IMG/VR virus record: IMGVR_UViG_3300035156_000206
Coordinates: 186,001-250,000 of that record
DNA: 64,000 nt
Reading direction: 5' to 3' (one strand)
From: a virus
Part shown: positions 20,203-46,100 of the stretch, in pieces
Numbering within the stretch: the first letter of the stretch is position 1
Layout of the letters: every line of letters begins with the position of its first letter
Made by a program: the position numbers and the translations under genes
The notes under the pieces: model-generated
What the model saw: the letters and a program-made list of their open reading frames with translations, nothing else
Database searches by the model: none
Told to the model about the DNA's origin: nothing

Positions 20203-20227
20203 TATTTATGTTTTCAGGACATAAATA
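20203..20227. promoter_or_regulatory. Divergent pair of late promoter boxes in a 9-bp inverted repeat
   Basis: ACATAAATA (20219-20227) reads rightward and its exact complement TATTTATGT (20203-20211) gives the same box leftward. The rightward box serves the gene at 20256. The leftward box would run antisense into the DnaE-like gene. Confidence 0.55.
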
Positions 20228-22266: not shown

Positions 22267-22300
22267 AATAAATACCTCCTTCGTGGAGGTATTTTCTTTT
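22267..22300 (+). promoter_or_regulatory. Late promoter box fused to a terminator whose right arm is also a ribosome binding site
   Basis: AATAAATA (22267-22274) overlaps the left arm of the hairpin AATACCTCC (22271-22279) / GGAGGTATT (22285-22293) + TTTTCTTTT. A transcript started about 6 bases after the box begins in the loop and cannot form the hairpin. The right arm supplies GGAGGT 8 bases before the TTG start of the GIY-YIG gene. Confidence 0.6.
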
Positions 22301-22976
22301 GGCACACATTTACAAAATAACAAACGCGGTTGATGGTAAGGTATATGTAGGCAAGACCAACCGTACGATCAGCAAGCGATTCAAGCTGCATATATCAAAA
22401 CACAACACCGGCACCACTTATTTGTATAGAGCAATGCGGTTGCATGGACTGGCTAACTTTAGTATATCAGAAATTGAAGAAGTGTGTGAAGTGGATGCAT
22501 CAACACGAGAACAGTTCTGGATAGTAAAACTTGGTACCAAAGTACCTTTGGGATATAATATGACAAATGGTGGGGATGGTGGCGACACTAGTGATTCTCC
22601 ACAATTCCAGAAATATTTAGCCAACCGTGACTATCGTGGTGTTAAAAATCCAATGTACGGTAAACGTGGGAAGGAAAATCCCAACTATGGCAGCTGTCGA
22701 TCAGATGAACAGAAGATAAACATGTCAGTTGGGCTGACTACTGCATGGGAAGCAAATGCCGACCGCAAGGACAAACAGTCCAATAAAATGCAAGGTGTGG
22801 GTAACCCCATGTTTGGGAAAAAGCCTAAAAACACCAAACGTGTTGTCTTTGACGGTGTTCTGTACGATAGTATCGCGGACTGCATGAAAGCAACAAAACG
22901 GTCCTCCTATTATATACAACGACACGGGCACATACAACATGACATTACTACACAAGCTTTGGCAGGAGAAATATAG
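22299..22976 (+). CDS. GIY-YIG homing endonuclease with NUMOD-like motifs
   Basis: 225 residues, TTG start at 22299 (GGAGGT 8 bases upstream). N-terminal GIY-YIG domain: 'IYKITNAVDGKVYVGKT' (the GIY/YIG strand pair appears as IYK/VYVG), an Arg-containing helix 'RFKLHISKHNTG', and Glu in 'STREQFWIV'. Two copies of a NUMOD3-type motif follow ('NPMYGKRGKENPNYG' and 'NPMFGKK'). The C-terminal region resembles a DNA-binding helix ('SIADCMKATKRSSYYI'). It overlaps the gp44 start by 38 bases, the usual placement of a free-standing homing endonuclease next to a conserved replication gene. Confidence 0.85.
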   Translation: MAHIYKITNAVDGKVYVGKTNRTISKRFKLHISKHNTGTTYLYRAMRLHGLANFSISEIEEVCEVDASTREQFWIVKLGTKVPLGYNMTNGGDGGDTSDSPQFQKYLANRDYRGVKNPMYGKRGKENPNYGSCRSDEQKINMSVGLTTAWEANADRKDKQSNKMQGVGNPMFGKKPKNTKRVVFDGVLYDSIADCMKATKRSSYYIQRHGHIQHDITTQALAGEI

Positions 22977-27895: not shown

Positions 27896-27916
27896 TATTT
27901 AGTTTGGTTATAAATA
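27896..27916. promoter_or_regulatory. Divergent late promoters
   Basis: TATAAATA (27909-27916, +) has the exact T4 late consensus and serves the acidic protein gene at 27948. CTAAATA on the - strand (27902-27896) serves the TTG-started gene at 27872. Confidence 0.65.
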
Positions 27917-28868: not shown

Positions 28869-28875
28869 TTAGGTG

Positions 28876-40009: not shown

Positions 40010-40013
40010 AACA

Positions 40014-40036
40014 AAGCCGCATTGTGCGGCTTTTTT
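40014..40036 (+). terminator. Rho-independent terminator
   Basis: AAGCCGCA (40014-40021), TTG loop, TGCGGCTT (40025-40032) followed by Ts. It ends the nucleotide-metabolism block. Confidence 0.85.
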
Positions 40037-40055
40037 GTTACCTGGACACAAAAAG

Positions 40056-40083
40056 CATAAATAGCCCTATCGTGGAATAAATA
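40056..40083 (+). promoter_or_regulatory. Two late promoter boxes in tandem
   Basis: CATAAATA (40056-40063) and AATAAATA (40076-40083), 72 and 52 bases before the ATG at 40135. Confidence 0.55.
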
Positions 40084-40134: not shown

Positions 40135-41418
40135 ATGAAATTACTACTCGCCCTTTTACAAGAGGCTAAGAAAAGTGAGATGGACCCATCTCAAGTGACT
40201 GCTTCGGACGTATCAGCTTATGTTCGCCAGGTCAAATCAGCTCTGAAGGGCCAGAAGATGACCAAAGGTTCTATCGGAAGTGCTGTTCGTGACATCGCAG
40301 AAGATGATCCAAAGTTTGGTGCCCATCCAGGTGCTCTGTCGAAATTGGCCGCTGCTGTTGCTGCAAAGCTCCTAGTTGTGCCTGTCAAAGAAGGCCTGGA
40401 TGACGAAGACTTTAGTGCACCAGCTGCAACTGAGCCTCCAGCACCCAAGCAACCAGATGCTGCTACTATTGCTGCCCTGTCACTGCAATTCACAGCTGGT
40501 GAGATCTCATTTGATGAGTTCAAGGCCCAACTGGCAAGTCTGGAAGCCGGCCCTGAAGCAACTACTGATGCACCACACGGTGAGCACCCAACTGGTGGTA
40601 TGGATGATGATCTCGATGGCATGGACGATGATGAATTCGATTCACACCGCTATAATGAGAGCGCAGATGCTGACGATGAAGATGATTCAATTCCTGCCAA
40701 GTTCTCTGCATCGTCTACAAAGGCTGAACTGAGCAAGCAAGCTTCGTACCTGAAGGCTGAAATCGCCAAAGCTAGTGATCGTATGTTGGCTGCTAAGCTG
40801 AAGCAGGCACTAACCAAGATCCAAGGATTCCAGAAGTCACAAGTATCGGAAAGCCTGTCGCCACGTGCTGAGAAAGCCTTGTCAAACAAGCTTTCAAAGG
40901 TGTCTGAGAGCGCTGACAGTGCTTCCAAAGAAGTTGTTGAAGAGTCTAGCCATATCGACGTGGATGAACTGACTACGACTGAAATCAGTTCGAAGTTGCT
41001 GGCTGCTGCTAAAGCTGGACACCCTGGTGTTGAAGGTATGAAGGTACATGCCGATGCAACAATGATGCGTGTTGAAGTACCTGGCACAGATCGTTGCTAC
41101 GCAACCCTGAATCTGGACACTGGCGCATTGACGGTGCTCAAAGAAGGTTGGGACTCGGAAGAGGAAGAAGAAGCCTGTGATGGTAAAGAAATGGCTGCTG
41201 CAAAGAAGCCAAAAACTAAACTGTCACCACGTGCTACAGTCGCCATGACCAAGAAATTGGCTAAGGCACCAAAGAAAGTAGCCGAAACTGTTGAAGTCAA
41301 GCCTGAAGTTGCAGTAGTAGAAGAGAAGGTTGCTGAAGTTAAAGTGGTAGAAGCAGCAGCGCCTAAAACTCTGGGACGTTTTGCTCAATCTATCGTGGAT
41401 GCCAAATCTGCTGAGTAA
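40135..41418 (+). CDS. Ala/Lys/Glu-rich late protein, probable head or internal virion component
   Basis: 427 residues; AGGAGAAATAC before the ATG. Low-complexity regions alternate with helices. N-terminal 'LLLALLQEAKKSEMDPSQVT' and an acidic centre 'DDDLDGMDDDEFDSH'. Two 'SPRA' repeats ('SPRAEKALSNKLSK' near 238 and 'SPRATVAMTKKLAK' near 362) flank a small folded part ('MRVEVPGTDRCYATLNLDTG'). The end is Val/Glu/Ala-rich. Late promoters and composition suggest a scaffold or packaged internal protein. No named homologue recognised. Confidence 0.65.
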   Translation: MKLLLALLQEAKKSEMDPSQVTASDVSAYVRQVKSALKGQKMTKGSIGSAVRDIAEDDPKFGAHPGALSKLAAAVAAKLLVVPVKEGLDDEDFSAPAATEPPAPKQPDAATIAALSLQFTAGEISFDEFKAQLASLEAGPEATTDAPHGEHPTGGMDDDLDGMDDDEFDSHRYNESADADDEDDSIPAKFSASSTKAELSKQASYLKAEIAKASDRMLAAKLKQALTKIQGFQKSQVSESLSPRAEKALSNKLSKVSESADSASKEVVEESSHIDVDELTTTEISSKLLAAAKAGHPGVEGMKVHADATMMRVEVPGTDRCYATLNLDTGALTVLKEGWDSEEEEEACDGKEMAAAKKPKTKLSPRATVAMTKKLAKAPKKVAETVEVKPEVAVVEEKVAEVKVVEAAAPKTLGRFAQSIVDAKSAE

Positions 41419-41439
41419 AGGGTAGGACGGCTAGGTAGC

Positions 41440-41474
41440 CTAAATAGAAGGGATCCATTTGGATCCCTTTTTTA
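41440..41474 (+). promoter_or_regulatory. Late promoter box abutting a terminator hairpin
   Basis: CTAAATA (41440-41446) is followed after one base by the terminator AAGGGATCC (41448-41456) / GGATCCCTT (41461-41469) plus a T run. T4-type initiation 6 bases after the box would start inside the left arm, so late transcripts escape the terminator that stops upstream transcription. Confidence 0.65.
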
Positions 41475-41486
41475 TTGGGTAGCCCT

Positions 41487-41681
41487 ATGTCAATCTTTGA
41501 CCCGAAATCTGTTTCACACGCGTTCTATGCCGAGTTGTTTACAAAAATCTCCATCAATCAGCTACTAGCGGAATCTGGACACTGCAAGCTCATCAAGGAC
41601 ATGACCAAAGGTGAATTTATCAGCTACCAGATGTATCTCCTAGAAAGCGTGAACGATGTTCAGAAGCCCTTGAAGAAATAG
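41487..41681 (+). CDS. Small hypothetical late protein (64 aa)
   Basis: ATG 41487, 13 bases after the terminator/late promoter unit; ribosome site is weak (GGGTAG). 'AFYAELFTKISINQLLAESG' and 'GEFISYQMYLLESVNDVQ' form two helices. Its 3' end overlaps the facing - strand gene by 62 bases. Confidence 0.5.
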   Translation: MSIFDPKSVSHAFYAELFTKISINQLLAESGHCKLIKDMTKGEFISYQMYLLESVNDVQKPLKK

Positions 41682-41943
41682 CACGGCCATGCAAACGGCC
41701 TGATCGTACTTCAAATTCGTCCCCAACTTGTGGAGCGAAATCGAGGCGATCAGCCCTAGGTTCCTTTCGGTCCGAACTCTTTTGGACCCACCACACGTCG
41801 TAGCCAACCAATACTGGCATATTACAACCCTGACAGCTCGCACGCACGTAGTGTGGCTTGACCGCAACCACAATTGCAGGCTCAGCCGCATAAGTAGCTG
41901 TAACAGACATCGTTGCAATAAGCAAAAACAGCAATCGTTTCAT
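41620..41943 (-). CDS. Putative secreted/periplasmic small protein
   Basis: 107 residues on the - strand; GGGAG 6 bases before the ATG. N-terminal signal peptide 'MKRLLFLLIATMSVTATYAA' with an A-x-A cleavage site. The mature part starts near 'AEPAIVVAVKPHYVRASCQG' with a C-x2-C pair and 'GYDVWWVQKSSDRK'. It could act in the periplasm, for example in superinfection exclusion or lysis control. A near-consensus sigma70 promoter drives it. Isolated - strand gene among late + strand genes. Confidence 0.7.
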   Translation of the reverse strand: MKRLLFLLIATMSVTATYAAEPAIVVAVKPHYVRASCQGCNMPVLVGYDVWWVQKSSDRKEPRADRLDFAPQVGDEFEVRSGRLHGRAISSRASEHRSRFLGDTSGS

Positions 41944-41967
41944 AATGACTCCCAGTTATTAATCTTC

Positions 41968-41995
41968 ATTATATACAAAATTTTATTTTTGTCAA
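41968..41995 (-). promoter_or_regulatory. Near-consensus sigma70 promoter
   Basis: On the - strand TTGACA (41995-41990)-N16-TATAAT (41973-41968), 25 bases before the ATG of the secreted protein. Both hexamers are exact consensus, so expression should begin early. Confidence 0.8.
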
Positions 41996-42081
41996 CGATG
42001 TCGATACTGCCGAGGACTTGCGGTACCTGCGCACCATTATGACGATTGTAAACTCAAACCCGCCGAACGTACGGCGGTCGT

Positions 42082-42089
42082 GATAAATA
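42082..42089 (+). promoter_or_regulatory. Late promoter box flanked by inverted repeats
   Basis: GATAAATA lies between TCGTG (42078-42082) and CACGA (42091-42095), preceded by the hairpin CCGCCG (42060-42065) / CGGCGG (42072-42077). It serves the collagen-like fibre 33 bases downstream. Confidence 0.6.
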
Positions 42090-42121
42090 CCACGATCAAT
42101 ACTAGAACGGAGCAAAAATTA

Positions 42122-45454
<3,333 letters not shown>

Positions 45455-45485
45455 ACACAACAAACAAGCAATCTGAGTTCATTAC

Positions 45486-45521
45486 CTAAATAGGGGAGTA
45501 GAGAAATCTACTCCCTTTTTT
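45486..45521 (+). promoter_or_regulatory. Late promoter box abutting a GAAA-loop terminator
   Basis: CTAAATA (45486-45492), then one base, then GGGAGTAGA (45494-45502), GAAA loop, TCTACTCCC (45507-45515) and six Ts. Same arrangement as at 41440: initiation would fall inside the left arm. Confidence 0.65.
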
Positions 45522-45551
45522 ATTCGATCAAACAGTTCTTAGGAGACAAGC

Positions 45552-46100
45552 ATGGAATACAACAAAGTAAGAGACACGCTCAAGGATGGACAAGTTGTGT
45601 TCATCCTGGCGAAGACCTGGAAACAAAAATTAATCTGCTTGGTGACAGGTGGGCGATTCTCACACGTTGGATTCCTCGTGTGGATGTATGATGGATTAGG
45701 GCGGAAACGTCTCATGTGCATCGAATCAAACTTCGGCGGAGCACGTCTTGTGCAAGCAAGTGCATACATTCCACGTGGAATGACAGTGCTCGACATAGGA
45801 ATCGATTGGACAGAATACGAGGACAGTGCATTTGGAGATACAGGCAAGTTGCCGTACAGCATACCGAACTTAGTACTGATCGGCATGAAGACCTTGCTGA
45901 ATAAGGTGGGTTTGCGCAAGCTGGCAAAACTGGTACCACGTGATCACCACGGTGAGGTGTGCAGTGAGTATGTTGCTACCTTGCTTGTTGAAGTTGGTAG
46001 ATACCAACTGGATGCATTTATCAGCCCACACGAACTATATGAAATGCTGATGTCTGCACCTGTGTTGCGGGGCGTGACGGTAATTGAAGCGGTTGACTAA
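45552..46100 (+). CDS. Papain-like (NlpC/P60, YiiX-type) hydrolase-like protein
   Basis: 182 residues; CTTAGGAGACAAGC before the ATG. 'LKDGQVVFILAKTWKQKLIC' and 'TGGRFSHVGFLVWM' carry the His of the permuted papain-like (YiiX/YaeF) family. 'HHGEVCSEYVATLL' carries the candidate nucleophile Cys, and an acidic 'IESNFGGA' strand lies between. Such enzymes hydrolyse amides or thioesters; in phages they are found with virion or lysis genes. Last + strand gene of the late block. Confidence 0.7.
   Translation: MEYNKVRDTLKDGQVVFILAKTWKQKLICLVTGGRFSHVGFLVWMYDGLGRKRLMCIESNFGGARLVQASAYIPRGMTVLDIGIDWTEYEDSAFGDTGKLPYSIPNLVLIGMKTLLNKVGLRKLAKLVPRDHHGEVCSEYVATLLVEVGRYQLDAFISPHELYEMLMSAPVLRGVTVIEAVD

Follow-up and report, generated by a model that had tools for sequence, protein, structure and literature searches.

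The window analyzed here, a 64,000-nucleotide stretch of DNA, comprises bases 186001 to 250000 of a 291,967-base virus record; positions below are those of the window unless the record is named. This 292-kb record belongs to the jumbo phages of the RaK2/CBB/XacN1 kind, and the nearest relatives of its UvsX are found in Stenotrophomonas phages CM1 and RAS14 and Xanthomonas phage XacN1. Positions 41000 to 46000 were compared with a phage collection, and no DNA-level relative of this region was found. Three plus-strand sites are the subject of this work. Site 1 (41440) and site 2 (45486) lie among late-boxed genes on either side of a tail-fiber gene (42122 to 45454), and site 3 (22267) immediately precedes a homing endonuclease gene (22299 to 22976). 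At each, a late-type promoter box lies against the left arm of a T-tailed hairpin or shares bases with it, as an earlier sequence-only reading had described.

Genes were called across the whole record with a simple script, and late boxes and terminators were scanned. TAAATA occurs 119 times, and 80 of these 119 copies are intergenic, versus 18 expected. Among the intergenic copies, 47 are ATAAATA and 19 are CTAAATA, the late box published for phage Aeh1 (PMC1524935). A gp55-like late sigma factor gene is present at 148601 to 148954 of the record (E values of 6e-23 and 2e-21). Enrichment of TAAATA 5' of genes, occurrence of the Aeh1-type form, and a gp55 homolog in the same genome are what gp55-dependent late promoters predict, and on these grounds the premise that the boxes are late promoter elements is sound. 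Several other promoter features were observed. Exact matches to the early promoter GTTGAC...TATAAT number 29 on the minus strand and 8 on the plus strand, so they are mostly on the minus strand, toward both record ends. Pairs of late boxes separated by a few bases, one box on each strand, occur at 948 to 967, 20208 to 20222, and 27901 to 27911. At record positions 109101 and 276773, both on the minus strand, a hairpin with a late box at its left flank stands before a sigma70-like early promoter sequence, an arrangement like that of cassettes in which an early promoter follows a terminator. An array of CGCCAACGCC with a period of 6 bases lies at the extreme end of the record (291747 to 291963, minus strand).

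The boxes at the three sites are of T4 type (CTAAATA or ATAAATA). T4-type late boxes span positions -13 to -6 (PMC1524935), and applying this spacing reproduced the predicted starts of the sequence-only reading at 41452 and 45498, within left arms, and at 22280, within a loop. Each hairpin consists of a GC stem followed by a T tract, as intrinsic terminators do. We infer RNA starts, termination, and translational block at these sites from such features. The predicted folding energy was -16.6 kcal/mol for read-through RNA and -5.9 kcal/mol for late RNA at site 1, -19.3 and -4.8 kcal/mol at site 2, and -13.9 and -0.4 kcal/mol at site 3. The proposal that late RNA cannot form the hairpin is thus borne out on paper insofar as the arm is lost partly or wholly, but not at site 1 in full, where late RNA from 41452 would retain a 5-bp stem. 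A late box overlapping the 5' arm, with a predicted late RNA that lacks that arm, is the arrangement of the T4 I-TevI and e locks; it is seen at sites 1 to 3 and is strongest at site 3.

At site 3, the box AATAAATA (22267 to 22274, plus strand) shares bases with the left arm of the hairpin AAATACCTCC TTCGT GGAGGTATTT (22270 to 22294, plus strand), and the predicted start falls in the loop. The stem is followed by a T-rich tail (TCTTTT; TATTTTCTTTT). The Shine-Dalgarno sequence GGAGG (22285 to 22289, plus strand) lies in the right arm, and 9 nt separate it from the TTG start at 22299. The downstream gene, on the plus strand between a conserved gene and a gp44-like clamp-loader gene, encodes a GIY-YIG homing endonuclease related to I-TevI. 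Its product has both the GIY-YIG and the I-TevI DNA-binding domains of that family (Pfam PF01541 and PF20987, both above cut-off, PF20987 by the small margin of 27.5 versus 27 bits) and is 30% identical to T4 I-TevI. In the read-through RNA, the unpaired probability was 0.0 at all five Shine-Dalgarno bases; in the predicted late RNA, three of the five were unpaired at 0.86 to 0.99. The same computation on the T4 I-TevI and e leaders gave a change in the same direction. Site 3 tolerates a shift of the start by two bases in either direction. The leaders are also alike letter by letter (I-TevI, AATAAATACTTC...GAGGTATTTATG; e, TATAAATACCTTC...AGGAGGTATTATG; site 3, AATAAATACCTCC...GGAGGTATTTTCTTTTG), and those of site 3 are nearly T4's (AATAAATACTTC...GAGGTATTT in I-TevI).

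The most fitting interpretation of site 3 is a translational lock on the endonuclease, in the arrangement of T4 I-TevI and gene e, whether or not the site terminates transcription too. This reading follows from the Shine-Dalgarno sequence in the right arm, the T4-like leader letters, and the homologous endonuclease. Read-through RNA from the upstream gene would fold and bury the Shine-Dalgarno sequence, and the late promoter, with its box within the left arm, would start RNA in the loop, leaving the Shine-Dalgarno sequence free so that the enzyme would be made late only. The T-rich tail after the stem would also suit a terminator that stands before the endonuclease by coincidence. We consider that explanation very improbable, given a Shine-Dalgarno sequence that lies wholly in the right arm at 9-nt spacing, the T4 leader letters, and the homologous enzyme; with such a tail, the lock may terminate as well. 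At the same junction, six relatives have neither the endonuclease nor TAAATA nor such a hairpin, for which reason the endonuclease and its leader look like an insertion, and the mobile endonuclease seems to have brought its own lock. Several relatives carry a sigma70-type early promoter sequence at this junction in place of the endonuclease. In RAS14, the only such endonuclease found has an equivalent leader of box, hairpin, and buried Shine-Dalgarno sequence. Site 3 extends a textbook form of T4 control, a late promoter embedded in an inhibitory hairpin, to jumbo phages, with RAS14 as a second case.

The surroundings of sites 1 and 2 are different. The plus-strand early promoters of the window lie at 28875, 31645, and 31969, and the early run that they drive is closed by an ordinary bidirectional terminator (40013 to 40033, both strands). 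Two plus-strand ATAAATA boxes follow at 40057 and 40077 (40057 to 40083), upstream of a gene at 40135 to 41418. Another ATAAATA (42083 to 42089, plus strand) precedes the tail-fiber gene, the transcript of which reaches site 2. Because both genes have late boxes upstream, the RNA that reaches sites 1 and 2 is expected to be late itself. The claim that the sites insulate late genes from early and middle read-through therefore does not hold for these two, which lie inside a late unit already closed off at 40013 to 40083. The genes flanking them have no alignable relatives in IMG/VR or phage records; matches of the collagen-like tail fiber, apparently mainly to repeats, were left out of the results. 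Neither right arm contains a Shine-Dalgarno sequence that could be locked, and a single device operating at all three sites is accordingly not what we find: site 3 is of the translational-lock type, and sites 1 and 2 are of the terminator type.

Site 2 has the strongest terminator-like hairpin of the three. Its box, CTAAATA (45486 to 45492, plus strand), adjoins a hairpin and T tract at 45493 to 45524 (hairpin, 45493 to 45516; tail, TTTTTATT) that was detected on the plus strand only in the scan. The next gene (45552 to 46100, plus strand; 182 amino acids, with a weak match to phrog_1128) has its own Shine-Dalgarno sequence, AGGAG, outside the hairpin and an ATG 54 nt past the predicted start at 45498, and no other TAAATA was found between the site and this gene. 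Since the terminator is one-directional, the box is CTAAATA, the gene behind it has a good AGGAG and ATG, and no other late box intervenes, site 2 is a better candidate than site 1 for a true promoter-terminator overlap, and a plausible counterpart of the lock at the level of transcription.

Site 1 combines an Aeh1-type box, CTAAATA (41440 to 41446, plus strand; PMC1524935), with a hairpin and T tract at 41449 to 41476 (hairpin, 41449 to 41468; AGGGATCC ATTT GGATCCCT, with the same tail as site 2) that scores as a terminator in both directions. A start two bases earlier than predicted would retain a 7-bp stem of -12.9 kcal/mol; a valve at this site would be fragile because it depends on the exact start base. 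The small protein that follows (41487 to 41681) is doubtful and has no clear Shine-Dalgarno sequence. The only early promoter near site 1 is a perfect early-type one, TTGACA-16-TATAAT, on the minus strand (41968 to 41995). It precedes a probable convergent early gene with a signal-peptide-like start (41620 to 41943, minus strand), the transcript of which heads into the site 1 hairpin. No convincing homolog of this gene was found, and its product is probably secreted. This lone early-type promoter with its signal-peptide-like open reading frame (41995 to 41620) lies within a late region, opposite in direction to its neighbors. Leftward early RNA from this gene probably ends at the hairpin too, and the simplest account of site 1 is a bidirectional terminator accompanied by a doubtful promoter.

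Whether the geometry exceeds chance was evaluated across the record. Among 118 intergenic terminators, 7 have a TAAATA whose first base lies 11 to 2 bases ahead of the stem, and an eighth has TAAATA in its loop. Box density alone predicts 0.93 such terminators (P of 4e-5), and none of 1,000 dinucleotide shuffles reached 7. Terminator flanks are A/T rich, and control hexamers of four A's and two T's are elevated there too (10 versus 5.2, or 1.9-fold, in the record and about 3.8-fold at the same position in other phages), which makes a correction necessary. The composition-corrected expectation is 1.8 versus the 7 counted, with a P of about 0.0025 that is post hoc because three of the seven sites are those of the sequence-only reading itself. 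In 11 related, T4-like, or jumbo phages, the corrected expectation was 28.1 and 28 were observed. The geometry is thus modestly overrepresented in this genome but not generally. A pooled enrichment over 12 phages (35 versus 8.3) was rejected as general evidence, as control hexamers of the same composition rise similarly. Late boxes inside hairpin loops are not in excess either (10 TAAATA versus 1 to 14 per control hexamer). The ordinary arrangement, a terminator with a late box 5 to 60 bases on, occurs 14 times versus 3.5 expected, a figure uncorrected for composition. The argument that the same geometry three times indicates design is partly supported by the excess in this genome and weakened in that much of the raw excess reflects A/T-rich flanks. 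More broadly, the control-hexamer test illustrates how easily such flanks mimic AT-rich promoter boxes.

The other sites in the record adjoin a terminase gene, NrdA/NrdB, a regulator/DNA polymerase pair, and an unassigned gene at the record's early end, where promoters are dense; the loop box lies at a topoisomerase gene. Several of these sites adjoin early or middle genes, and a recognized late gene, that for terminase, lies beside one of the four further sites, where a second, ordinary late box stands 3' of the hairpin. Beyond the record, two orthologous small genes of RAS14 and XacN1 each have a T-tailed hairpin that contains a late box directly ahead of the start codon (RAS14, 208222 to 208261 and 203566 to 203606; XacN1, 118496 to 118455 and 123150 to 123118), with stems that differ completely between the two phages. 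Two such pairs were found versus 0.38 by permutation (P of 0.05), and at least two of the four sites also bury a Shine-Dalgarno sequence; as evidence for a terminator version beyond the record, these pairs are suggestive only.

These results bear on how the three sites should be interpreted together. If all three sites were one-way valves acting on transcription to shield late genes from early and middle read-through, as originally proposed, the geometry and the predicted hairpin loss in late RNA would be accounted for. Both the excess in the genome (7 versus 0.9 to 1.8 expected) and the RAS14 and XacN1 orthologs, in which the late box persists within terminator-like hairpins although the stems are unrelated, are in keeping with this proposal. 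We nevertheless regard it as unlikely: the Shine-Dalgarno sequence is buried at site 3, sites 1 and 2 lie downstream of the ordinary early/late boundary at 40013 to 40083 and should receive late RNA, and terminase is the one recognized late gene among the four further sites. A stronger competitor, to which we assign somewhat less than an even chance, is that sites 1 and 2 are plain terminators and that TAAATA is not a promoter but a by-product of an A-rich left flank and, at site 1, also of a bidirectional terminator's T tract. The rise of control hexamers in this record and in other phages is what this explanation predicts. Moreover, site 1 scores as a terminator in either direction, with a perfect early promoter opposite it, and of 58 plus-strand intergenic terminators, 33 overlap with one on the minus strand. 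On the other hand, TAAATA exceeds the controls in the record, albeit post hoc, both sites carry CTAAATA, the form of 19 intergenic boxes, and the scan scored site 2 in one direction only, with no other TAAATA before its downstream gene.

On balance, we favor one geometry with two jobs as the probable interpretation: a translational lock at site 3 and end-and-restart terminators at 45486 and, less surely, at 41440. In this interpretation, the latter two would be intrinsic terminators that each end one late transcription unit, that of the tail-fiber gene at 45486 and that of the late-boxed gene at 41440. The late box at each would start a new late RNA inside the left arm, which would escape the terminator, and the sites would serve as compact punctuation among late genes, not as a barrier between early and late transcription. 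A terminator version of the lock is plausible, and it would act on every upstream polymerase and vanish for late starts, serving as punctuation between late genes. That RaK2/XacN1-like jumbo phages in general use such a transcriptional version of the T4 lock, with a late box in the left arm or loop of a terminator, is a more tentative proposal that we consider doubtful. If the terminator version at 45486 is true, the same trick would operate at the level of transcription and provide a very compact genetic insulator. No description of a late promoter inside an intrinsic terminator was found in the open-access literature searched.

Several known systems resemble parts of this arrangement. PeSL cassettes consist of a terminator and then an early promoter. 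They share the compact stop-and-start; however, their early promoter follows the stem, whereas here a late promoter overlaps it, and no plus-strand early promoter was found beside the three sites. The T4-type gp55 late promoters, in the Aeh1 form, have the same box and spacing as the three sites but are free-standing, whereas here the box lies inside or against a terminator. Bidirectional intrinsic terminators, with the two strands' terminators facing each other, occur in T4-like phages such as pf16 where transcription switches strand (PMC5587285); they fit site 1, except that one flank there also reads as a late box. In the T4 e, soc, and 49 leaders, the Shine-Dalgarno sequence or start codon is held in a helix, and at e, the 5' strand of the helix contains late promoters, with the result that late but not early RNA is translated (PMC3014915). 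Those genes encode lysozyme, capsid, and recombination functions, in contrast to the endonuclease at site 3, and sites 1 and 2 differ from them in having no Shine-Dalgarno sequence in the hairpin. The closest counterpart of site 3 is the T4 I-TevI leader, in which a hairpin sequesters the endonuclease Shine-Dalgarno sequence and a late promoter at its left arm yields late RNA without that arm; leaders of the same kind precede I-TevII, I-TevIII, segB, and Aeh1 mobE (PMC2988022). Site 3 differs in its jumbo phage host, TTG start, T-rich tail, and free-standing rather than intron-borne gene, yet it shares with I-TevI the AATAAATAC..TC and GAGGTATTT letters and a related protein.
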